Assembly (NCBI RefSeq): GCF_964355755.1
Contig: NC_092680.1
Span: 1,775,001 to 1,839,000, forward strand
Reading direction: 5' to 3'
DNA length: 64,000 nt
Source: Antedon mediterranea
Lineage: Eukaryota > Echinodermata > Crinoidea > Comatulida > Antedonidae
The notes beneath the pieces are model-generated. The model worked only from the letters and a program-made list of their open reading frames with translations. It did no database searches and was not told the DNA's origin. This document shows positions 37,657-54,224 of the stretch, piece by piece (within the stretch, counting starts at the first letter, position 1; each line of letters opens with the position of its first letter). Position numbers and translations under genes: made by a program.

Positions 37657-40220
37657 ACTTTAAACACACGTGAAACCAACGCGCACGTCCAACCAACGCG
37701 CGTGCACGTCAAGCCAACGCGCGCACACGGTTGCGTACTTCAACGTGCTTGCCATGCATTATATCTAAAAAAAATTATTTAAAAAAAGTAGTAGTAGTTT
37801 CGTAGTTTTTTTACGCAATTTGAATTTGGTCATTTCAATAGGCCTACTGGTTTTCATAATTTTATGAGTTTTAAAACATTCCTTATTTATAAAAGTTGTT
37901 TTAATTTAATTTATTGCAATTTTCTTTTGTGCGTAGTAACAAAAGTGAGTGAGTAAAGTATTAAGTTATTAAATAGTATTTTATTATTGTTATAGTATAT
38001 TTATATTATATTTTTCGTCAATTACAATAACGTAAAATAATTACCTTGAGAAATCGTAGAAGTAACCAAATATATGAATATAAAGTATAAAGAATAGATA
38101 GAATTTATTATATAATTATGATAATGTGATCAACCAATGTATATAATATTCAATTATTGCAATATCTATTTAGAAATACATTTGAATTATGATGCCATAC
38201 GTTATAGTATAATATTATAAATGATTAAGGATAAAAGTTGCTGCATAAAGATTATTTCTAATTTATAATAAATTATTTGTAATTGTAATATTGAAACTAA
38301 ATTATTTACCTTGCTTATTACGATCAAGTCATCGACTTATAGATTAACCTAAATTACCTTAAATGTGTCGTAACGATCTTTAAATATTAAAAAAATATAA
38401 TAAAAAGGATGTGAAAAAATAAGCACATGTTGTTTTAATGTTCTCATGTGTCCATCTATGCAACAATAATTTTTTTTTTCAATAAATTTTAATATCTAAA
38501 AAATAAGATAGAAACTAGTAGTGGTTCAACCATAATTTACATTCGGACAAGATTTGTAATTAAGAAAACAAATCATTTTGTATAGGCTTATAGAGAAAAC
38601 AATTTATATTATAAAAAAAAACAAGATATATATTCCATGAACCATAAATTAACTTTTATAGAGAAAATGGAAATCAAGGTTTAATTTCATTTTCACTAAA
38701 AACAAAACAACATTAAAAACAAAGCTTAGATTTGTATTATAAGAAAGACTTTTTTTCGGAAAGGATAGTGTTTTGAAACAGCATAGGCCATATAAGTTAC
38801 TACAGGACATCTTTTAAAAATGTTTTTAATTTTTTTTTATAAAAATAAATCAACATCAGCATCAAGAATTTGTATTCACAGAATAGGTAGCCGTGTATTA
38901 TAGATTGATTATCCTGTACATGTCAATAGACCTGTATAATGGAACAGGCGTAAAAATTGTGCCCTCTTTAGTTTGTTATTTCGGCCAACCCCCTGTATAT
39001 TATAAACAGCTTGCTTAGCATGATTTGATTAACCTCGACACCTGCGCAACTACAGTATAGACTAAGTCTCGACTAGGTTACCACTCAATCTAATGTTAAG
39101 TATAATCGAATTACAATAGAGTAAAACAAGTGTATATATTGATTTGTTTTATTGTTTTGCAATTTTGCCGTATTTTAAAGTTCCAAATAAGTGATTATTT
39201 TGTTGCCATCAGCTGTAAATTAGTCCAAATCAAGGATGTACAAGGACCAGCGAAAGCGTACGAAAAACGTGAGGGAAACCGCCAGGTGGGACAGAACAAT
39301 TACTAATCTGTACTGTTGTATCTTATGGTATATAATCACACTGTAAAAACTATTACATCTATTCGTTGAGAGTGTTGATAGGCTTACCTAAGCACTGTAC
39401 CGTAGTGCTATGTTTGCCACGAGGAGAATTTCCTCTTTCTACGAGCATGTACGCAAGTGCGTCTATGGTTTTAGATTAAGAGTTGTGAATAGTGAAAATG
39501 ATCTGGTTAGGTGTACTATGAACTATTTGTTACGATATTCAATCTCTACACTAAGTGGGAAAAAATCCTATATTAAGTTTAATTTTCCGGTTTAGTATTA
39601 TTTGTTGTTGTACAGTATATGTGGAATATTTATTCTGAAATAAAGTGATCACATCAAATCAAATAACTATATACCGAAAAGAGTCCTAACTACCAGTACT
39701 ATTGTTAAAAAAGCATTATTACAAAATAATGTATTATTTATTTATTTATATAATTTATAAATATTTATTCTATTTTACGGATCCTTAGTGTCCCAAGTTT
39801 ATATGTATATAATTCTATATAGTCATAGATATTCGTCCGACGCAACAACAATTAGTTTCTGACAGCTTCAGTAGTTCTCACAATATACAATATTGTGTTT
39901 AAAAAACTGATACACAAATCACAGGGATAAACACAGCACTATTTTATGTGTATTTTTCCTGATGTCGCGTGGACATGTTGATCTATTTATACATCCATGT
40001 GTTGACAATGAATTTGACCAAATACATGAATTTAATGAATATATTGGTAGCAGCATTTTAAATCTGGATCCCGTTAAATCAGGATTCTTAGAGACAATCA
40101 ATACCGCCGAGGTGGGTATAGTAGTGAAGTGCTCAGAGTTTCGGCTGTTTTTTTCGTTTTCTCCAATCGTTATTTCATTTTTTGTTAAGAGGAGAAGAGA
40201 AGAAAGATAACGGGCGGATC
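37657..40220. other. Spacer between GGT-B and GGT-C
   Basis: AT-rich, with no convincing gene. It has a small CCAACGCGC triple repeat near 37680-37735. A likely 5'-UTR exon of GGT-C ends at 40111 with a GT donor; a 78-nt intron with a strong pyrimidine tract leads to an acceptor at 40189. Confidence 0.5.
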
Positions 40221-43200
40221 ATGGCGGTTGTGAAGATAGTTCTGCTGAGTATTGCAGTGTTTGTGTTGGTGGTTACGTTCTCTATAGCAAATCGTGAGAA
40301 TGCGACTGTAACCCGCCGCCGTCAGTTTAGCAAAGCTGCTGTGGCCACTGATGTGCCTGAATGTTCTGAAATGGGAAAGTATGGTGTATTTTCATTTGTT
40401 TAAAATTCTCGTATTAACCATCGTTATAAGAAGTTGTGCAGCCTTTATTCAAAGAAAACATAAATATAAGGGTTTTTTTTTATCCGCGGCAGATCCATTT
40501 TACTTGAAGGCGGTACCGCTGTTGATGCCGCAATCACATCGATGTTATGTATTGGACTGGTGAACGGCGAGTCGTCTGGAATTAGTGGCGGCTTTTTTAT
40601 GATGATGTACGATACAAAAGCTAAAAAGGCAGAGTTTCTCGACGCTAGGAACACTGCACCTGCAGCTACAAATGTGAATATGTTTAACTCTAAACCACAC
40701 ACCATGATATACGGTAAGACTCTTTCAAACAGACCTAACATCGGCTGCTGTTTTATGAAAGATGTATGTAAATATATTGTTGCTTTACTGTAATATCGTT
40801 ACTTATAACAGAATAGCCGATGTAATAACAGATAATATAACAGATAATTCGTGTGTATTCTTTAGGTGCGTTGGCTATAGCGACACCTGGAGAGGTTAAG
40901 GGAATGTGGGTAGCTCACCAGAAGTATGGCAAACTTCCTTGGAAGAGACTGTTTGCACCTGTTATCGAGTTGGCACGCAGAGGAGTCGAACTGACCATTC
41001 ACGGAGCAACAAGCATTGGTGATATTCTACAGAATTATGGCAAAGGACCTCATATGAAATAAGTTACATTGACTGTGTTACCTAAATACGCACTTAACAT
41101 CAGATGTATTGTCCCTTTGTCAAATTCCAAAAAAATAAAAATTAAAAGATTTCGAAAAAAGTGGGTAATTTTGAACTATCATAATAGTTATTAACTTTCA
41201 CCAAAAATTAGTCAAAAAAAAAATCATTTAACTGAAATACAGACGTTTTTTGGTTCAAAAAATAACTTTGACTTCCTGTCAAAGTTTTCGATCAAAACAT
41301 ATCTCATAATGCAATGCGCTTGTTTGGCTACTCTGTATGCATAATCATAAATCTTCCTCGCGATCTGTGTGAAAACACTTTCTCAACCGTGACAAGTTGT
41401 AAACAATCCTAATTAGCATCATGCATAATGCATATTCATGGTTTGAAATCTTTGTTTACTTTCGCTCGCGACTATTTTCCAGACGAAATGTAATACAATT
41501 AATTTAGCTGTTAATTACGTAAAATTGTTGTTTTTGGCTTGAATTTTCGACTTAAAGTGAATAACTTTAATATTACTTTGATATGGCCAATTAAAATTTA
41601 GTATATTTTGACCTTAATTTGTGTGTGTTTCAAGGGACAATACATCTTTAAGTAAACACATCATAAGTGGTATTTATATTCGTAGGTTAATGTGTTTAAG
41701 TATATACCTTTTGGAAGCTGTTCTCCTATCAGGTAGTATAGTTATGTTGATTTAATTTACACTAAATCAATTTATTTATTTATTAAGGCTTGGAGGGAGT
41801 TATACTTTAAAGATAACGGAACCCGTCCTAAAGAAGCGGGTGACATCATATTACGTAGCGAATACGCCGACACGCTGCAACGAATTGCTAACAACGGCTG
41901 GACTGAATTCTATATTGGAACTACAGCTGATATGATTATTGAAGATATGAAAACATATAGTGAGTTTATAGGTCATTTTGAAAACGAGTTCGAGTAAAAT
42001 ACTTTAAGATATATTAAATCGTGCCTCTCAAGTAAGGAGTAATAAATTGTTTTTTGTCTTTGGTTCAATGAAGACGCGAAATTTGCACGCGCGATTTACA
42101 CGCGCGTTCAAACTTTGATGACAAGATACAGTATTTGCAAAGGCGTGTCAAGAGTACTCAACTACTGGAAAAAGTTTTAAAAGTGTTTAATTATTATTAA
42201 TTAAATTGTATTATGGAAGTTAAGATTTATGATTTATTTTATGAGTTTGTTTTCTTCAGACGGAATTTTAACAAAAGCGGACTTAAGTAACTATGACGTA
42301 AGATGGTCTGATGGAGTAAAGTCCTCATTTATGAACTACACGGTATGTTCTCCAGGTTCACCGAGTGGAGGGCTGGCCTACCAGTTTTTTCTAAATGTAT
42401 GGAAAGGTACAGTTGGTAGATAATTATACACTCAATTAATACTACTACAAATACTACTTTTGTAAAGCTCTGTCTACACTATCAAACGAGTTTGACAAAT
42501 AAAAGTGTGATGTGCCCAAATATGGTAGTAATGACATATGACATAATGTCTATATATATATGAGCACATCACATTTTTTGTCGCATAAAGTTTGATAGTG
42601 TAACGCATCTATTGCTCGCGGATGGTGTCTGCATAAAATTACGTCGATCATGACTTGTTTTTATGATTAGGCTATGAAATTGATCTGAAAACTACTGCAG
42701 ACAAAGTGCGAACGTTCCACCGTTTTCTAGAGACGTGTAAGTTTGCGAGTGGTCAGTTTTCCATCATGGGTGACGTCGATAATCCTGAGGTCCGTCAGGT
42801 AAGAATATCCTGGGGTTTCAGTTGGTGAATACGGTAAGATTCTAATTTTGTAAAAATATCACGGCCGTGTTTTATTACTTTACTTAGTTTATTTGCCAGA
42901 TAGTCTGATGATTTTCCCGCCTCGGCTGCTTTGCTTATCTCGGATTGCTTTTCTCTAGTCCTGTCTGTTTTCTGCTATTCTCCGAACCGTTTCTGTATCT
43001 GTTATGCTATTAATCCTAGGCGGTAGTGCAGTTGATGATTGTTTATGAAGAGTGATCAGGTCGTTCGGATAGAGTTACCGGTAGCGTGGACCGTGGCCGT
43101 GTTTTATTGATAATATTAAAAGCGAACTGTGTATCCGCCCGATTTAAACACCAGCTTTTGTTCGGGGTTTATATTATGATCTTCTGTGACACAACGTGTA

Positions 43201-46200
43201 ACATGTTTATACTTTTAATGTTGTCTTTACTATCGTCCTATCAACATTTTGTACATTAAGGTGATGGAAAACTTGGCATCTGAAGACTTTGCGTCAAATG
43301 TACGCTATACGATAAAAGACGATCGGCTCACTTACACCAATTTAAGCTATTATAGTTCTGGAATTTTTGACGAAACTGAAAAAAAAGGAAGCACTAGTCA
43401 CGTGAGCGTCTTAGATGAGAATGGAAACGCTGTATCTGTGACGACGACTATAAACTATTAGTAAGTTACAAACACAAAATGGTTGTAGATTAAATTAAAA
43501 CGTGGTTCCCAGTAGAGACGCGCAACGCAAGCGAGTTGACCAATGACAAGCCACTGTTCGAATAATCAATCGCTTGTGATTGGTCAAATCACTTACGTTG
43601 CGTTACTAGTGGGAACCAAGCTTTACTTTATCGTTTATTTAGTTTCGGCTGCAAAATAATGTCAACAAAATCCGGAATAATATACAACAACCTGATGACA
43701 AGTTTTACTAGGCCTAATTCAGAAAAATCGTACCAGAAGAAAGGATTTAACTACCCTGGCCCAAATAAGCGGCCTAAGTCGGGGATAAGCGGTAGTATCT
43801 TCCTCGATAAACACGGTGACGTCAGATTTGTGGTGGGAAGTTCTGGAGGAAATACAATTGTACCTGCAAATGCATGGGTAGGTTTAGGTAAAAACAAAAG
43901 TACGACGAGGGTTGGTGCGAGAACCTCGCAACATAATTTACATAACAATGCCATAATAAAGCTTGGTTCTCACTAGCGACGCAACGTAAAAAAATACCCT
44001 TCCAATCATTGTGTTTGCACCCGCCTGAGTAAATTCAAACCTACGTTCGCAACAATGTTGCGTCGTCGGTTCCCACTTGTGATTACGTAATACAACACTT
44101 TGCGTCGATACGTCGCTGAGTTGCGTTCTAGTGGGAACCGCGCTTAAGCGAGAATTTATTTATTTTATGTCTTTAGGCAATGTGGCCAAGGATTACCCAT
44201 AGTGAATTAATCACTGTCCTATCAGATAGGTGGTAATCCTCCTGATACAGGGGCTATTGTGTGAACCAGTTCACCGGGGTAACCCCCCCCCCCCCCACAA
44301 GGTAATTAAATGGAACAAAATAAATCCTTCTATCGCAATGGATTAATGAAAAATAAACGTTATAGTGGCAGTGGTATGAACATACCGTAATGTGAGCAGT
44401 TGCTGTTTTGAAATTCAAATTGACAAGAGAAAAAGAGAAACCTTTTCATGGTCTGACATACACGGCATTGAGCCCATGATATCCAGTGCAACAAATAAGC
44501 TTGGTTCCCACTAGCGACGCCCCCGCCTTCGTGAAATCAAACCTGCGATGTTTGCAGCACTGTTGCCTCGTCGGTTCCCACTTGTGATTACGCAATACAT
44601 CACTTTGCGTCAATACGTCGCTGCGTTGCGTTCTAGTTGGAACCAACATGTGCTGTTTAGGCCACCGAGTTCAAATGACGATTGGCTCACTAATCAATTC
44701 CACGATGTCGTTGATTTTATCCTATCTATTTTACATAAGTACTGTGGTATAATTTTAACTGGTGATTTTAATTATGATTACGGTGTCAATAGTCCCTTAG
44801 TTTATAAGAAATTTAAAGAAATTATTGCTCCACTTGATACTATATAATTTGTTGATTTTTATACTCGTGTTTCTAACACCAAAAGTAGCATTATTGATCT
44901 GGTCTTGTGCAATAACCCTGACATTGTATGTAATTTCAGAAGTCATCCCGGTCTCAGTACAAGTGACCACCTTGGGGTTTATTTTAATATTAACGCTAGA
45001 CGCAGTAAAGTTAAACCTGTAGATAGATATTATTGTCAATATAGTAAATGTGACCATGACGATCTTTTTACAACGTTGGGGGCGGTTCCTTGGGGTCTGT
45101 GCCTGGAACAATCAGACTGTGAGGAAATGTGGGAAAATTTTAAAGACCTCTTTCTCGCCATTATCAACGATTGTATCCCTAAAGTCAAAAGTAAAAAGAG
45201 AAACAGGCCAGCTTGGATAACTCAAGAAATGGTTACCATGGCTCGTAAAAAGAAACGAATGCTAAAAGAGGCTCATCGTCATCCTCATAACCCAAGTAAG
45301 ATGGACAATTATAGAAAGTTTAGTAATAAATTAAGAAACCTAACAAAAAAAGCTCATTTACAATATATTAGGAAATTAAGTGTCGCCTGTGTAAATGTTA
45401 TGTTAAGACACGGCAGTAAGACTGGACAAGTCAAAAACTTTGTTTTTAACGGTATACCCTTGGTTTCTGATATCGATGCGGTAAATGCATTTTCCACATT
45501 CTAATTGCGTCAAACTTTAACGAACCTAATCGTAATTTCAATGTTAACCATGAGATCTGTAATTGTGTTCACCCAGATATTGTTCCCCTTAATAACATTA
45601 ATATTAGTGAAAAAACTATTTTCGAGGCTCTATTGTCCTTGAAACCCAACAAATCCTCTGGACCTGACGGGATTACACCTAAAATGTTATCCATGTCAGC
45701 TCCAATTATTGCCCCAGTGTTGTGCAAAATGTTTAACAAGTTCTTAACGGATGGCTTTGTACCAAAAGATTGGAAACTCGCGAATGTCACTCCTATTTTT
45801 AAGTCGGGTAATCGTAACGAAGTTAATAATTATCGACCCATATTGCTATGTTCTATTATAGGTAAGGTTTTTGAACGTATTATAGCAGATAACATTCTTT
45901 TTTATCTTCAATTTTTTGGATTTATAAGTCCCACGCAACACGGGTTTTATCCAGGTAGATCGTGTATTACACAGGCCTCAGCGTTATATCATGATTGGTC
46001 ACAAACAATGGATGTCAGACAACCTCCTGTAATTGATGCAATATTCCTTGATTGGGAGAAGGCCTTTGACCGTGTTCCCCATGATTTAGTAATCAAGAAA
46101 CTGCACAACATGGGAGTATGTGGATCTCTCCTAAAGTGTCTTCACTCCTTTCTCAGTGACAGATTCCAACGTGTTGTTCTTAATAAGGAGCATTCTGATT

Positions 46201-47922
46201 GGGATAGAGTGGGCTCGGGTGTTCCTCAGGGATCAGTGTTAGGCCCGCTTCTATTCAATCTCTTTGTTTATGACCTACCTCTAAATACCTCTTCTGTTAT
46301 GAAGCAGTATGCAGATGATACAGTAATTTATAAACCTGTATTCAGTCGTCATGATGCACTTACCTTACAACAGGATCTTTGTAAAATTTCCAAATGGTGT
46401 GAGGATAATAAAATGAAATTAAATGCAAAGAAGTGTAAAGTCATGCACATAACTAGGAAACGTAATTATATCACTCATTTTATTTATACAATCGAATCCA
46501 ATCCCCTTGAAGCTGTTAATTCACATAAATATCTTGGTATTAACTTCTCACGTGATTTAACATGGTCTGCTCACGTTAATGATGTACGTATCGATGAAAT
46601 CTATGAGAATGCTTGGGTTTATCAAACGGTTTGTAGGTTTCAATGACACCGAAATTTTACTACGACTTTTTAATGCACTATGTCGACCTGTTATTGAATA
46701 TGGTGCTCCTGTGTGGGATCCACATCAAAAACAACATAATATAGCTATTAACAAGTCATTAAGACGGGTTACTAAATTGTGTGTTGAAGGCGATTTCACT
46801 GACAGGCTTAAGATACTAAATTTACCAGATATGGTTCAAAGAATGAAATTTCATAGTATAATTTTTGTAGTTAAGTGTTTGCATAAGTTAATTGATTTTG
46901 ATATATTTGAATACCTTACAATTAATTCTCGGTATCCAGAGTCCCTCACCTTTAAACACATGTATGCTAGAACTAATGCATTTAAATACTCCCTGTTTGT
47001 TAATTTCCCTCGAATATGGGAATGTATCCCGCATGAAGTTCGTAACAAAGTCCTGTTTAACTTTGGTGGGTTTAGAAGGGACTTGAAAAAATGTATTACT
47101 GATATCGAATTCATCTAGACTTTCTCTGTGTTTTTATGTCTATTGCGTTTTTCGTACTATTAGTTGGGAAAGCCACTCGACAGTGCGGTTCTTTTGAACT
47201 GATCTACTTTTGGTTACCCGCAGGTGCTGATAGTGTACTTTTGTTCTGTTTTATTGAATGATGCCGTACCTTGTTTTTGATTTTTGTATGTTACCTGGAA
47301 ATTGAATAAAAAAAAAATAAAAAAAAATAGAACACTCTTTATTGACATTTTAAATGTAATGTTTGTTTCAAATATTGTTTGTAGCTAGATATAGTCTGGG
47401 ACAGATACGGCACTTTCTTTACAGATGTTGTTTTGTTTTTAGCGATTCTACCGTGCTACACCTTTCATTATGTTTTCAAACCCGTCTTTCACAGGCAACG
47501 CTGTTAGTTCTTTCTTCAAATTATACGTTAAAAAAAGCCGTGGAATGGCGTAGGATATTCAATCCACTGTTTCCAAATGAAGGCATATATGAAGAAGGTT
47601 TTCCAAAAGTAAGTGGATGTTGATTGCTAGCATACCACCCACCGTTACCACCCACCGTAAATTACGAATAATACGAGGTCAATTTGTAATTGAAGCTAAT
47701 ATTTTGAGTTTAATATTTTTATTTTGTAAATTAGTTTTTGAACATGATAACTTACTATTTTGTTATTTATAGGAAGTTTTATCAGGCTTGGAGAAACTCG
47801 GTCACGTTGTAACACAACTGCCATCGTATAAGTTCGCGGTTACCCAAGCTATATTAAAGGATGACAATGGTATAGATGCGTACTCGGACTCGAGAAAACA
47901 GGGGCAAGCCGCAGGATATTGA
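40221..47922 (+). CDS. GGT-C: gamma-glutamyltransferase paralogue, 10 exons
   Basis: Third GGT. Exons: 40221-40378, 40493-40713, 40866-41058, 41787-41959, 42260-42406, 42671-42798, 43261-43460, 43643-43877, 47495-47608, 47773-47922 (TGA); 572 residues. The exon frame extends upstream to an acceptor at 40189, but no earlier in-frame ATG was found, so the ATG at 40221 is chosen. A signal anchor follows ([14 protein letters not shown]). The threonine nucleophile in GSTSHVS, the arginine in DARNTAP and SSGG are kept. Departures from the family: GISGG for GIGGG, KSG for the SS pair of PLSSM, and Ser at the human Asp423 position (numbering from memory). Catalysis may be weakened. The third intron (41059-41786) again starts AT and ends AA, as in GGT-B. 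Intron 8 is swollen by a LINE. Confidence 0.85.
41059..41786 (+). other. GGT-C intron 3 with AT...AA ends
   Basis: ATGAA then ATAAGT at the start, ATTAA then GGCTTGG at the end; same position and pattern as GGT-B. It contains the MITE-5 at 41102-41647, which GGT-B lacks. Confidence 0.6.
41102..41647. mobile_element. MITE-5 copy (GATGTATTGTCCC ends)
   Basis: Longer relative of 14316-14571, with AGATGTATTGTCCCTT and AAGGGACAATACATCT ends. Confidence 0.7.
42464..42602. mobile_element. MITE-1 copy
   Basis: In a GGT-C intron; the right terminus is truncated after TTTGATAGTGTA. Confidence 0.75.
43498..43624. mobile_element. MITE-3 copy
   Basis: Compact copy ending 19 bp before the GGT-C exon at 43643. 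Confidence 0.75.
43959..44146. mobile_element. MITE-3 copy (sister subfamily)
   Basis: Complete copy in GGT-C intron 8. Confidence 0.75.
44160..44297. repeat. Possible SINE fragment with poly(C) end
   Basis: CACCGGGGTAACCCC is shared (inverted) with the SINE at 52131-52455; a run of about 15 C follows. Weak evidence. Confidence 0.3.
44497..44644. mobile_element. MITE-3 copy abutting the LINE
   Basis: Sister-subfamily copy with a deletion in its left arm. Its right end touches the truncated 5' end of the LINE, suggesting insertion at its edge. Confidence 0.65.
44645..47320 (+). mobile_element. 5'-truncated, frameshifted non-LTR retrotransposon (LINE)
   Basis: Begins inside an apurinic endonuclease domain (GDFNYD, then SDHLGVYFN after a stop). 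It continues through a linker (44905-45504) into a reverse transcriptase (45633-46646) with [41 protein letters not shown] and the catalytic QYADDT. A frameshift near 46600 passes to 46579-47118. It ends with A-rich sequence after GAATAAAA. Broken frames make it inactive. It looks Jockey/CR1-like, clade not assigned. It lies in sense orientation in GGT-C intron 8. Confidence 0.9.
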
Positions 47923-48518: not shown

Positions 48519-51500
48519 ATGTTTTGCAGATCAACCATACTGTATTTATGTAGGCGATGCAGTAAGTTTTTGAGAAATGATGTAGCTTTGTATTCAAGTA
48601 TTTCTAAAACCAACAAATATGACAACACGGCGGTTGTTGAATCATCACCGGCTAGGCCTAGGCCTAAGCCTAATCCTAGTCAGGAAAGGCAAGCATCCGA
48701 CAATCATCGACAGGCATCGATGCCCTTTAGTGGGGCGAAGCTTGGTGTGTTTACGCAAGTGAAGCCCAAGTTGACTAATGTTTTTACTGAAGATAAACTA
48801 CTTACAGATTTCCTCAAACGGACGATGCCAAAAGATGTAGGTTTCATTTTTTTTTTATCATGAATGACCTTTTGGTGGTCTATGATGAGTAAGAATAGAT
48901 ATAGGATAATCCTTTTTATTTGTGGCCGGACATGACCTTTTAATACGTACCTGGATATGCAAATTAGGTGACCTGAATAAGTGAATGATATTACTAGGTA
49001 GGTAGGTAGGTAGGTGTACATACACATACACATACTTCTTGAAAGTGTAAAATTGGTATGGTATCAATTAATAATGATGATGTTTTTTTTTCAAACATTT
49101 TTACATTTTTCAGGTGCTGCAAGAAATTTATTCGGATTTGGAAAGGTTTGGTAAAAGAGTTGCAACAGAAATCGATGATCTTGGAAAAGAATGCGAGAAA
49201 AATGTACCAAAAATTATAACATTTGATGCATGGGGTAACAGAATTGACGAATTGATCACATGTGATGCCTGGAAGAAACAGCACGATATATCAGCTGAGG
49301 AAGGACTCGTAGCAATACCTTATGAAAAGCAGTATGGCCCATGGAGGTAATTTCAATTTCTTTTATTTCAACTTTGTTTTGCCTGTCAAAAACAGGTGAT
49401 ATAGATTATAGTAGAAAAATTATCATTCAAGATATGTTTTGCTGCCTCAACTGTATTACGGTATATAAACTTTATATTTATAATTGTCTAGCCTGATTTT
49501 TATCTATGCATATCATACATATCTATATGACCTGGTTATTGTATTTGCTTTTATATTTATCTTTCACTTCAGCCATCTATATCAATTTGTTAGTTGTATC
49601 TACCACGATCTGACAATTTTATTTCTGTTTTATTTTCATCTTTCAGTCGAGTATACCAACTTGTTAAGCTCTATCTATATGCGCCATCATCAGGGCTGTA
49701 TTCGTGTCCTTTGGCTATGACTGATGGAGCTGCTAAATTTTTTCAGGTGACTTTCTTTTTATAGAAAAACATTTTTTTGGAAAATCAGTGAAAATAGGTG
49801 CCTAAAAATGGCAAATTTTAGGTGCCAAACTGAAATTATATTTTTATTATAGTTTTGCACAATTTAGGGGGGCCTAGGCCCTTGAATTCGCCTTTGTAGA
49901 GAGGTAGCAGTTGACAGCCAGCAAACAGGTTTTTTAAAATGCCAATTAATTTTTCATTTATATTTTGTTAGATCCACCCAGATTTACCTATGAATGAGCG
50001 GGCATTTTCAAGACTTATTTCTCGTGACCCAAAGCACTTCTGGACGTCTGGTCAGTGGATGACTGAGAAGAAAGGCGGTTCTGATGTCGGTATGTGTCAA
50101 CAGAAGTAGGCAGTATTTCTACAAATTTTTGTGACATTGCACAAACATGTGATGTGCCCAAATGTGGTAGTGATATTCCTTAATATGGTAGTGATATGAC
50201 ATCATCATGTCCATATATGGGCACATCACATTTATTTGTCACATAAAGTTTGATAGTGTAGATAGAGCTTTACAAAATGTATTTTATTACCATACGAATT
50301 TAAGTTACTAGATTATAAAGATTCTTTTTATTTAGGTCTGGGGACAGAAACGTTGGCTGTTCCTCAGCATGATGGCTCGTACAAACTGCATGGGTTTAAG
50401 TGGTTCTCATCCGCTACTGATGCTGACATGACACTGACACTTGCTAGAATAGTAGATGAATCTGGACAAGCAACACCAGTAAGTTCATACTTAAAACACC
50501 ATAAATTGAAGAATAACATAACATTCTTTCATATTTTTAATTTCTTTTTTTTTTAATGAGACTTTAGAAACAAAAAATTGACACAAACCTGGTTCTGTAA
50601 TGAAAACAATGCAAATTTTGTGCATTTTGCTTGGACCCCTTTCACACAGAAAAATTAAAGAAATTATTATCTTGTGTGTGAAAGGTGTAGACAGACAACA
50701 ACATTGGCTTTCTAACCCAAATAAAGCTGCCATTTTTTAGAAGGCAGCATATTTTTAAATAATGCAACATCATAATAATAAAGAATTGATTAGTGTTTTT
50801 ATTCCTTTTTTGTTTTTTTCCTGTGAAGCGCATTATGCGCTTAAGAGTCCAAATGTATTATTATTATTCTAGTCAATCAAGTGTGAATGAAGCCTAATTC
50901 TGTAATTTCAGTGTGAAAGATGCTTTAATTTCAGTGTGAATGAGGCTTTAATTTCAGTTTGAAAGAGGCTTTAATTTTACCTGTCAACTCTATAGGGATC
51001 AAGAGGACTGTCAATGTTCTATGTAGAAACAAAGACTATTGATGGTACATTAAATGGTATTGAGATACAAAAGTTAAAAGACAAGCTAGGCACAAGGCAG
51101 CTACCAACAGCTGAACTGCTTCTAGATGGTACCATTGCCCAACTGGTAAGAGCTCTTCACTGTAATGTATGTAAGGTTAAGTCAATTCAATCTTTTAATT
51201 TTGACGTCGCTTGAGTAGACACCCTTAAATCATGACATTAAACTACATACACCTTTTGAATCTACGACTGTCCTTTACCTAAGTTCCCTATTGTTATTAA
51301 CTTCTGTTAGGTATCACAGAAAGGGAAGGGAGTGTCTAGCATTACCACTATGTTGACTATCTCAAGAATACATACAATTATGATGGCTGTCAGCAGTATG
51401 AGAAGGTCAGTTCTAATATTAAACTTCTTTTCTCTTTTTTTTGGTATGGTTTTAGGTGTCAGATGAAGGAAGAGGGGTGGTTGGTATAACTCCAATGTTA

Positions 51501-54224
51501 ACCATTACCAGGTTACATAACACATTATCAGCTGCGTCATCTATGAGAAGGTAACAAGATTCTCATACAAGTTGTGGCTTTGGCAATGTTCTTGTGAACA
51601 GACTATACTTTGACGACATCCATTGTACAATTTGTACAGAATTGTTCATTTTCTTTATCTTTTGTTCTGATTATTAAAAAAAGTTGTGCAATTTCTACAG
51701 AATAGTGCATTTAGCCAGAGATTTTTGCCTAAAGAGGGCGGCATTTGGTAAAGTTATTGTAGAACATCCTCTCCACATGCAGACACTTTCAAGACTTGAG
51801 GTACCGTTTTGTTGTAGTTTTACAAAGAGATTTAGAATAAAGAAAATATATGGTTTCATTTATATATGTGGCTAATTATATACATTGAATGATGCTTAAA
51901 AAGTGGTGTTACATATCTGTAATATCAAAATCTTTGAAAAGTACTACTTTAAAGTAGTGGAGTAGAGTAGTGAGAGAGGCAAATGCAAGTATTTTGTATC
52001 CGTAGGCAAAATACTTTACTTACGTTTGCCTCTCTTTACCCTGGTTACTAGTTGCATTATGGGATTATGTTTCCATACATGTTTGATAAATTTATCAATG
52101 GGGTAATAATGTTCAGCACTTTGAGGTTTCACAAAGTGAGTGGCCGAGCGGTTAAGACAGTGGAACCGTAATCACGTAGCCATAACATCGGCAGGGGTTC
52201 GAGGCTCACTCACTCCATGGTTCTGGTGGTAGAACGAGTCTTCTCGGATAAGGACTATAAACCGTAGGTCCAGTGTACACAACTTGCTCGTGTGCACTTT
52301 AAAGAACCTAGTACATCTTTCGAGACGAGTAGGGGGTTACCCCGGTGTATTAGTACATCACAGCCACTGATCACCAACTGGGCCCTCTGAGAGATCAGTC
52401 TTTGACTGAAGAGGTCACCCAGTATAAATATATAAAGATAAAACAAACAAACAAATCCAGGATATTATTATTTTGTTTGCATTCATTGTGTTTTGTTATC
52501 AGGTAGAATCAAGAGCAGCCTTCTTAATGGTAATGGAAATTGGTCGTCTGCTTGGCTTAGAAGATTGTGGTGAAGCCAGTGATGATGAGTTGGATATGCT
52601 GAGGCTGTTGACACCTTTGGCTAAGCTATATACTGGTAAACAGGTAAGATATATAGCTCAGTATTCAGCTTGAAATATGTTAAATTATTGAAATCTAATA
52701 TAATATAAATATTGTTATTGTTTTGTGTTATTGATAAAAAATTAATATTAATCTGTCAATAAATAGAATACCAAATATTATGATTGTTTATATATGTACA
52801 GGCTGTTTCAGTAGCATCAGAAGCCTTAGAATGCTTTGGAGGACAGGGCTACATTGAGGACACAGGTTTGCCTGTATTTTTAAGAGACGCTCAGGTAATT
52901 TAATGAATACGCCCAGTCATTTTTATTCATAGATGATCTATGAGCATTTTCTAAATTTAAGTACAATATACGACAACAGGCACACATTTTAAATTTGTAT
53001 AACCATGTGTTATAGGTCCTCAGTATTTGGGAAGGAACAACGAATATTTTATCTCTGGACGTGTTACGTGCCATCACAAAGAGCAATGGAAAAGTATTAT
53101 TGTCGTTCTTTAAAGACGTTGAACAAAAACTTACAAAAGTGGCCATGTCAGAGGTCAATGACCTTCAAAATAGTACACTTAATGTCTCGCAAGCTCTTAA
53201 GGTAAATCTTTTGACAATTTTTGTTGTCTTATGTATTTTATTTTATAGGTTTCTTGTTAGTACCCAGATTGTATCCACGATGTCATTGTAAGCTCATAAA
53301 TTGAATATCTACACTATCAAACTTTATTTGACAAGAAAATATGATCTGCCCATATATGGACATAATGTCATATCACTACCATATTTAAGCATACCACTAC
53401 CATATTTGGGCACATCACACTTTTTTTTGTCAAACTCATTTAAAGTGTAGACAGAGCTTAAACTTAAAAACATGGTTTTTTGACTAATCATATGCTGTAG
53501 GAATTTCTCAGAACCTCCATTAAATCTTTATTCTTTTATAAAGGTTTCCTCTTGGTTATTTGCCAAATTTCTAATAAATAAATCTTTCTCTAACATACAC
53601 CTGAAGGAATATTTTATTATTATAATAAGTAATTATATAAGTAATAATTTTACTTTACTGGTTTAAGAACCTATCTATCCACCAACTTTAATATTTTATG
53701 TAGATTTCTATACAATTTGAATGTCAATTTTATTTTAAAAATATATATCCTTTGTAGGATGTAAAGGAATTTGTAGAAATGTCATCTCAACAGTCATTAT
53801 CATTTATGGAAGCTGCAGCGCGAGATTTTGCGTTTAGTTTATCAAGAATCTACATGGCAGCTGTTATGTTGGATCACGCCGCCTGGCAAGGAGCAGACGC
53901 GTCTGATGTCATGGCTGCCAAACGGTAAGAATACTAGTTTTTGCAGGACCACATACACGTTAACTTTAATGCTTTTTTCCAACAAGCAATGTGATACACA
54001 TTGTATATGCCAGTTGATATTCAGAGCCCCCAATTGAATTAGGGGATGAATTCAAGAAAGTTTACCCACTCAATCCTTTCTTGAAATTTCTTGTATACTG
54101 TAGGTGGTGTGAAATGGATCTTGTACCAGTGATAAAAAATGCCGCTAATGGACACTATAGTTGTGAAGCATATGGACTGGATTATGCAATGGTATTAAAT
54201 GGTCATCCAGAAGCCAGTAGGTAG
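48519..54224 (+). CDS. AidB / ACDH-11-type acyl-CoA dehydrogenase, 13 exons plus an alternative exon
   Basis: Flavoprotein of the acyl-CoA dehydrogenase superfamily, closest in motif to bacterial AidB and nematode ACDH-11. Exons: 48519-48836, 49114-49346, 49647-49746, 49972-50089, 50336-50478, 50996-51145, then either 51311-51405 or 51456-51550, 51701-51800, 52503-52643, 52802-52894, 53016-53201, 53758-53924, 54104-54224 (TAG); 654 residues. The N-terminus ([19 protein letters not shown]) is basic, without acids, like a mitochondrial presequence. FAD-binding motif [11 protein letters not shown], then [18 protein letters not shown] and [29 protein letters not shown] holds a Glu where MCAD has its catalytic IYEGT glutamate. 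Substrate unknown; ACDH-11 is reported to bind C11/C12 acyl-CoA. Exon 1 codes a low-complexity RPRPKPNP stretch built from TAGGCCTA words. Confidence 0.9.
48996..49016. repeat. (GGTA)n microsatellite
   Basis: About five TAGG units in the first intron of the AidB-like gene. Confidence 0.8.
50118..50273. mobile_element. MITE-1 copy
   Basis: Left terminus worn, right terminus good; 62 bp before the exon at 50336. Confidence 0.7.
51311..51405 (+). CDS. Alternative exon 7a of the AidB-like gene
   Basis: 95 nt, phase 0 in and phase 2 out, acceptor GTTAG and donor GTCAGT. It codes [15 protein letters not shown] and [16 protein letters not shown]. Similar to exon 7b but clearly diverged, mainly at positions facing the acyl/FAD helix by analogy with AidB. 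Confidence 0.8.
51456..51550 (+). CDS. Alternative exon 7b of the AidB-like gene
   Basis: 95 nt with the same phases as 7a, acceptor TTTTAG and donor GTAACA. It codes [15 protein letters not shown] and [16 protein letters not shown], closer to AidB (EGEGI...TR). Only 50 nt separate it from 7a. Confidence 0.85.
52131..52455 (+). mobile_element. tRNA-derived SINE
   Basis: The head (52131-52216) has A box GTGGCCGAGCGGTTAAG and B box GGGGTTCGAGGC, like Leu/Ser tRNA. The body includes TTCTCGGATAAGGACTATAA, GTAGGTCC, TTTAAAGAACC and ACATCTTTCGAGACGAG, a central domain I recognise as shared by SINEs of several animal groups. The tail is AAACAAACAAACAAA. It lies just before the exon at 52503. Confidence 0.8.
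53306..53460. mobile_element. MITE-1 copy
   Basis: Complete but with diverged ends; in the AidB-like gene. Confidence 0.75.

Follow-up and report, generated by a model that had tools for sequence, protein, structure and literature searches.

A putative mutually exclusive exon pair at the acyl pocket of an ACDH-11-type gene in the crinoid Antedon mediterranea

Why does a metabolic gene of a crinoid carry two versions of one exon side by side, and what would be exchanged in the enzyme if only one of them were used at a time? The question arises from a window of 64,000 nucleotides of the Antedon mediterranea genome. The gene is of the ACDH-11 type, and we consider it probable, from the DNA, that it possesses a mutually exclusive exon 7 pair that swaps the acyl pocket of the protein.

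The gene was rebuilt from the sequence on the + strand, where its 13 coding positions span 48519 to 54224 and all introns have GT-AG boundaries; its position 7 is filled twice, by exons referred to here as A and B (Table 1). The start codon in exon 1 was picked by eye, and the basic N-terminus that follows it resembles a putative mitochondrial targeting signal. The gene is present as a single copy in the genome, so that no paralogue able to donate a second exon by exchange was found. A loose look at other acyl-CoA dehydrogenase matches in the genome revealed no tandem pair in the equivalent stretch of the model. As to the surroundings of the gene, exons resembling a gamma-glutamyltransferase gene were read from open frames upstream (40128-43976, + strand), and LINE-type reverse transcriptase open frames lie between this upstream gene and the ACDH-11-type gene (44515-47118). 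The intron between exons 8 and 9 holds what appears by eye to be a tRNA-like SINE (52130-52460), in which ARAGORN calls no tRNA.

Table 1. Coding exons of the ACDH-11-type gene and the intron within the exon 7 pair (positions in the window)
Feature	Position	Strand	Remarks
Exon 1	48519..48836	+	start codon; in frame with rest; donor GTAGGT
Exon 2	49114..49346	+	gene rebuild
Exon 3	49647..49746	+	gene rebuild
Exon 4, with 10-residue motif	49972..50089	+	gene rebuild
Exon 5	50336..50478	+	gene rebuild
Exon 6, constitutive, upstream of pair	50996..51145	+	gene rebuild
Exon 7A	51311..51405	+	95 nt; divergent helix-G version
Intron between exons A and B	51406..51455	+	50 nt; sole YTNAY candidate CTAAT, A at 51416
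Exon 7B	51456..51550	+	95 nt; family-typical helix-G version
Exon 8, constitutive, downstream of pair; rest of helix G, FGK motif	51701..51800	+	
Exon 9	52503..52643	+	gene rebuild
Exon 10	52802..52894	+	gene rebuild
Exon 11	53016..53201	+	WEGTTN with conserved catalytic-position Glu (alignment)
Exon 12	53758..53924	+	ACDH-11_C domain
Exon 13	54104..54224	+	stop codon

The pair is flanked by the end of exon 6 at 51145 and the start of exon 8 at 51701. Exons A and B both enter in phase 0 and leave two bases over, and each has its own AG acceptor and GT donor. The donors, AG/GTCAGT in A and AG/GTAACA in B, are imperfect, with a C at +3 in A and a C at +5 in B. An earlier note on this DNA had described two adjacent 95-nt blocks with the same phases and their own splice sites, and every coordinate and junction of this description holds in the rebuilt gene. 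Its further statement that the use of both exons or of neither breaks the frame was reproduced by in-silico splicing, where an early stop was found in each case: the transcript containing A and B ends 10 codons into B and the transcript lacking both ends about 17 codons into exon 8, whereas the A-only and the B-only transcripts each give an open frame of 654 amino acids. The DNA evidence for the exon pair itself is strong. Its two members are identical at 56 of 95 nucleotides (59%) and 18 of 31 amino acids, the 354-Mb genome contains this pair only once, and no third copy of the exon is present between 47 and 56 kb. Two other origins were ruled out: a chance resemblance, since the best of 3000 dinucleotide-model (Markov) shuffles of the intron, scored in AG-95nt-GT windows, reached 5/31 amino acids as compared to the 18/31 seen, and an assembly duplication or allele, since A and B are 41% different in DNA. 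Downstream of the pair, the 29 nt around the exon 8 acceptor (51684-51712) are repeated 61 nt upstream (51623-51651) with 86% identity, and this repeat is a decoy acceptor for exon 8 whose use would shift the frame.

Its matches identify the protein as an orthologue of ACDH-11. Among solved structures the best match is C. elegans ACDH-11 (4y9j), with 353.6 bits for the B form and 343.6 for the A form and an identity of 60% over a 270-residue core, and the second-best structure is Bdellovibrio Bd2924 (6sd8), with 54% identity. The Pfam matches comprise ACDH-11_C (PF22217, 118.7 bits), AidB_N (PF18158, 53.4 bits), PF00441 and PF02770, a set in which the middle and C-terminal dehydrogenase domains accompany AidB_N and ACDH-11_C. 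The Glu at the catalytic position is present in the alignment, within WEGTTN, and is encoded by an exon common to both forms. The gene had initially been described as an AidB-like acyl-CoA dehydrogenase, which is loosely correct, but the family is that of ACDH-11, as indicated by its score (353 versus 135 bits) and by the ACDH-11_C domain; AidB was ruled out as the closest relative, as it ranks fourth (135 bits with B, 132 with A).

To place exon 7 in the fold, its invariant Arg was numbered position 0 and mapped to MCAD and SCAD by gapless alignment of this Arg plus the downstream R..FGK motif. It corresponds to Arg256 of MCAD (position checked in 1ege) and to Arg272 of human SCAD (8sgs), so that position -1 is Thr255 of MCAD. 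On this alignment exon 7 encodes the beginning of helix G together with the loop that precedes it; in LCAD, helix G comprises residues 279-317 (PMC11153573). Residues at these positions have known roles in related enzymes. Position -1 is occupied by the catalytic Glu291 of LCAD, which is on helix G (PMC11153573), and by the displaced catalytic Glu at the helix-G site of IVD (PMC5798300). Position +3 is Ile275 of SCAD, which acts with Ser117 and Tyr391 to keep out longer chains (PMC13027082); the helix-G isoleucine of SCAD has also been described independently as a restricting site (PMC5798300). Furthermore, SCAD Arg272, at position 0, contacts CoA, and the Arg at +25 contacts FAD (PMC13027082). 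In P. aeruginosa FadE2, Glu296 and Gln303 were identified as selectivity-filter residues (PMC11890623). These two residues map to -1 and +6 in the PDB sequences of the wild type (8png, NYERLGVGIQGL) and the triple mutant (8r1e, NYARLGVGIAGL), which in this segment differ exactly at -1 and +6. It was shown that FadE2 E296A/Q303A (with M130G) lets in C16 and that A295E in FadE1 moves the preference from C16 to C8 (PMC11890623). The initial proposal that the exon encodes part of a helix at the substrate site is hence borne out, and can be sharpened to helix G and its positions -1, +3 and +6.

Exons A and B were then compared with 80 bacterial orthologues aligned over the exon segment. Four residues, G(-12), T(-1), R(0) and N(+3), are invariant in 80/80 of these sequences and are also found in C. 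elegans ACDH-11 and in Bd2924. Exon B retains all four and hence the T-R-x-x-N signature. Exon A retains G(-12) and R(0), but T(-1) is replaced by Ser and N(+3) by Thr; the resulting S-R-x-x-T is absent from the 80 bacterial orthologues, ACDH-11 and Bd2924. The alignment places a Cys at +3 in AidB. At +6, where 72 of the 80 orthologues have a small residue (Cys, Ala, Ser or Gly), B has Ser and A has Met; A also has Ile at +4, which is Ala or Ser in the orthologues, and Met at +5. Given that 76/80 bacterial orthologues are closer to B than to A, B is the ancestral-like form.

Each of the three helix-G positions (-1, +3 and +6) with a published link to acyl-chain length thus differs between A and B. 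With 13/31 residues differing, the probability that all three would do so by chance is about 0.06 (about 1 in 16), and the stronger argument is therefore that A alters invariant residues while keeping the rest of the helix. The bulky side chains of A suggest that the tunnel of this form is narrower or has another shape, and it is predicted to accept acyl chains that are shorter or shaped differently. Providing one enzyme with two acyl pockets would be the most likely role of the pair.

An exclusive pair could also be real and serve a different purpose, with the swap tuning tetramer contacts, FAD affinity or stability instead of the acyl pocket. Helix G also helps to bind FAD, as seen for the Arg at +25 in SCAD (PMC13027082), and about half of the differing positions are located in the loop before the helix. 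In addition, the generic Pfam model scores A 9.5 bits above B, and single swaps showed that this excess is due mainly to the changes LS-to-MM, P-to-T and VG-to-SS and not to -1 or +3. However, the FAD-contacting Arg (+25) is encoded by exon 8, which both forms share, and the residues that do differ include two otherwise invariant active-site positions and the gate at +6. We consider this alternative unlikely. A description of exon A as "classical-dehydrogenase-like" was dropped, as the single swaps place its gain in the Pfam score outside -1 and +3.

The two copies appear to be old and both held as protein-coding sequence. In a dN/dS comparison of A with B, the silent sites proved to be saturated (pS 0.80) and the amino-acid sites to be under constraint (pN 0.30; 31 codons, one comparison, one genome). 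The differences are distributed over the three codon positions as 11, 8 and 20 of 31, and positions 1 and 2 are better conserved than position 3 (Fisher p = 0.0034; 31 codons, one pair). Neither A nor B contains a stop codon. When neutral change was simulated to the divergence seen at third positions, stop codons were absent from only about 25% of runs, and so few changes at positions 1 and 2 as those seen were never obtained. It is the combination of saturated silent sites, constrained amino-acid sites and the absence of stops that suggests two old and maintained copies. A and B have seven positions in common against worm ACDH-11; a duplication after the split from nematodes would be consistent with this thin indication.

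These data also bear on the idea that exon A is a relic, with B in constitutive use and A seldom if ever spliced in, or the reverse. In favor of this, B agrees with the family at all invariant positions and is the copy closer to nearly all bacterial orthologues, and A is without two residues that are otherwise invariant. A relic would, however, hardly be expected to be stop-free, to have retained its AG and GT as well as the length and phase of its neighbor, or to conserve G -12, R 0, M 11, R 12 and R 13. Codon positions 1 and 2 of A are strongly constrained while its silent sites are saturated, and the neutral runs never showed so few changes at amino-acid sites. A relic is accordingly judged quite improbable.

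If both exons are in use, the question is what would keep them apart. The earlier note had regarded the intron between them as often too short to splice; its length was confirmed, and the gene's other introns, including those from exon 6 to A and from B to exon 8, measure 121-702 nt (a small sample) as compared to 50 nt. Animals with short introns are nevertheless able to splice introns of 50 nt. The only motif match to a branch point in this intron has its adenine 11 nt from the donor and is followed by a T-rich tract. With this as the only candidate, splicing of A to B would presumably be blocked. For human exon pairs, the published criterion of steric exclusion is a donor-to-branch-point distance of <50 nt (PMC5740500), and the exclusion of OGDH exons 4a/4b involves branch points near the donor and a long pyrimidine tract (PMC7969005). 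Competing RNA structures are without support, as the 555-nt region folds no better than shuffled sequences (z 0.30), giving no sign of a long RNA duplex or docking site, and its inverted repeats are weak. It is very unlikely that the pair serves for regulated unproductive splicing, in which frameshifted and degraded mRNA would adjust the enzyme level and little would depend on what protein A encodes: the exon length, not a multiple of three, does lead to early stops when both or neither exon is used, but A would need no protein constraint, yet constraint is seen, and the 50-nt intron with its candidate branch point 11 nt from the donor speaks against double inclusion.

Elsewhere in this genome, a muscle-type myosin heavy chain gene (L013:2547-2822; G000:C1:19159546-19159821) has tandem exons, GNAKTCRNDNSSRF and GNAKTIRNDNSSRF, about 84 nt apart, which look like a further mutually exclusive pair; mutually exclusive splicing is therefore probably a normal tool of this animal. 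A different phenomenon was noted at G000:C3:19.6-25.1 Mb (L098-L102), where a single myosin-head exon (model positions 342-408) is present in >20 copies over about 5.5 Mb of one chromosome. Five copies were checked; they are 92-98% identical over about 650-800 bp and have an open frame. A myosin gene has been amplified here on a large scale and recently.

The favored explanation, an exclusive pair that swaps the acyl pocket, would operate as follows. An ancient tandem duplication of exon 7 would have given rise to two mutually exclusive exons, either of which may be joined between exons 6 and 8. Joining of A to B would be barred mainly by the closeness of the donor of A to the branch point of B (11 nt), which would hinder spliceosome assembly, and RNA with both or neither exon would be out of frame and probably degraded. 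Differences between the two proteins would be confined to the loop before helix G and its first turns. Exon B would provide the usual acyl-CoA site of the family, with Thr at -1, Arg at 0, Asn at +3 and a small residue at +6, and exon A an altered tunnel, with Ser at -1, Arg at 0, Thr at +3, Ile at +4, Met at +5 and Met at +6. The pair, its reading frames, the constraint, the orthology and the place in the helix can be read from the sequence; we infer from the DNA the exclusive use in RNA, the steric exclusion, the decay of mis-spliced RNA and the change of ligand.

Divergent acyl-CoA dehydrogenases are poorly understood. In C. elegans, membrane-lipid desaturation and heat tolerance are both under the control of ACDH-11, on whose natural substrate opinions differ (PMC4741542, PMC10876521). 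Two apparent versions of the pocket that differ in one 31-residue segment represent a clean natural experiment on ligand choice. If the proposal is true, substrate preference would be under splicing control at two places in the dehydrogenase/oxidase superfamily, here and in ACOX1. A far-reaching and quite improbable extension is that splicing toggles the ACDH-11 orthologue between ligand classes, by which tissue, diet or temperature could set desaturation signaling; such classes could be straight-chain versus branched or cyclopropyl medium-chain acyl-CoAs, or the toggle could be between a binding and a catalytic form.

Several known systems can be compared with this locus. Worm ACDH-11 (4y9j, 4y9l) belongs to the same family, shares 60% core identity and has TR..N as in exon B, whereas exon A has SR..T. 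It lowers the expression of the desaturase FAT-7 in heat adaptation (PMC4741542, PMC10876521), by sequestering C11/C12 chains according to an older model (PMC4741542), and by degrading a beta-cyclopropyl C11 fatty acid supplied by food bacteria according to a newer one (PMC10876521). Medium-chain acyl-CoA binding combined with regulation of a desaturase is known for the worm protein only (PMC4741542, PMC10876521). Bd2924 (6sd8, 6sda), the second-best structure, binds C10-CoA in a long tunnel under the FAD; no dehydrogenase activity was detected for it, and none of significance was reported for other divergent relatives (PMC6851490). Being bacterial, it differs in having no introns and one helix-G sequence.

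A helix-G exon pair is not described in those parts of the literature on ACDH-11, or on mutually exclusive exons and acyl-CoA dehydrogenases, that were accessible. The initial statement that no such pair is known in this family thus stands for ACDH-11, within the same portion of the literature, but the wider superfamily does have one in ACOX1, whose mutually exclusive exons 3a/3b give isoforms that differ in palmitoyl-CoA activity (PMC12318918). ACOX1 resembles the crinoid gene in superfamily and in having an exon pair, but it belongs to the acyl-CoA oxidase subfamily and a different exon is concerned. ACOX1 exon 3 lies elsewhere in the fold than the helix-G exon. Another lipid enzyme with an exon pair is ACSL6/ACSL1, an acyl-CoA synthetase of unrelated fold, in which the choice between mutually exclusive exons exchanges a short motif of the fatty-acid gate (PMC1543647). 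OGDH 4a/4b is likewise a pair in a metabolic enzyme, with exclusion enforced by branch points that lie near the donor of the intron between its two exons (PMC7969005). It differs in that another enzyme is concerned, in that Ca2+ sensitivity is changed, and in that its branch points were mapped experimentally, as compared to a motif only in the crinoid gene. PKM is another known mutually exclusive pair. As ACOX1, ACSL6/ACSL1, PKM and OGDH illustrate, this kind of pair is already known, and it is its place in the enzyme that is informative.
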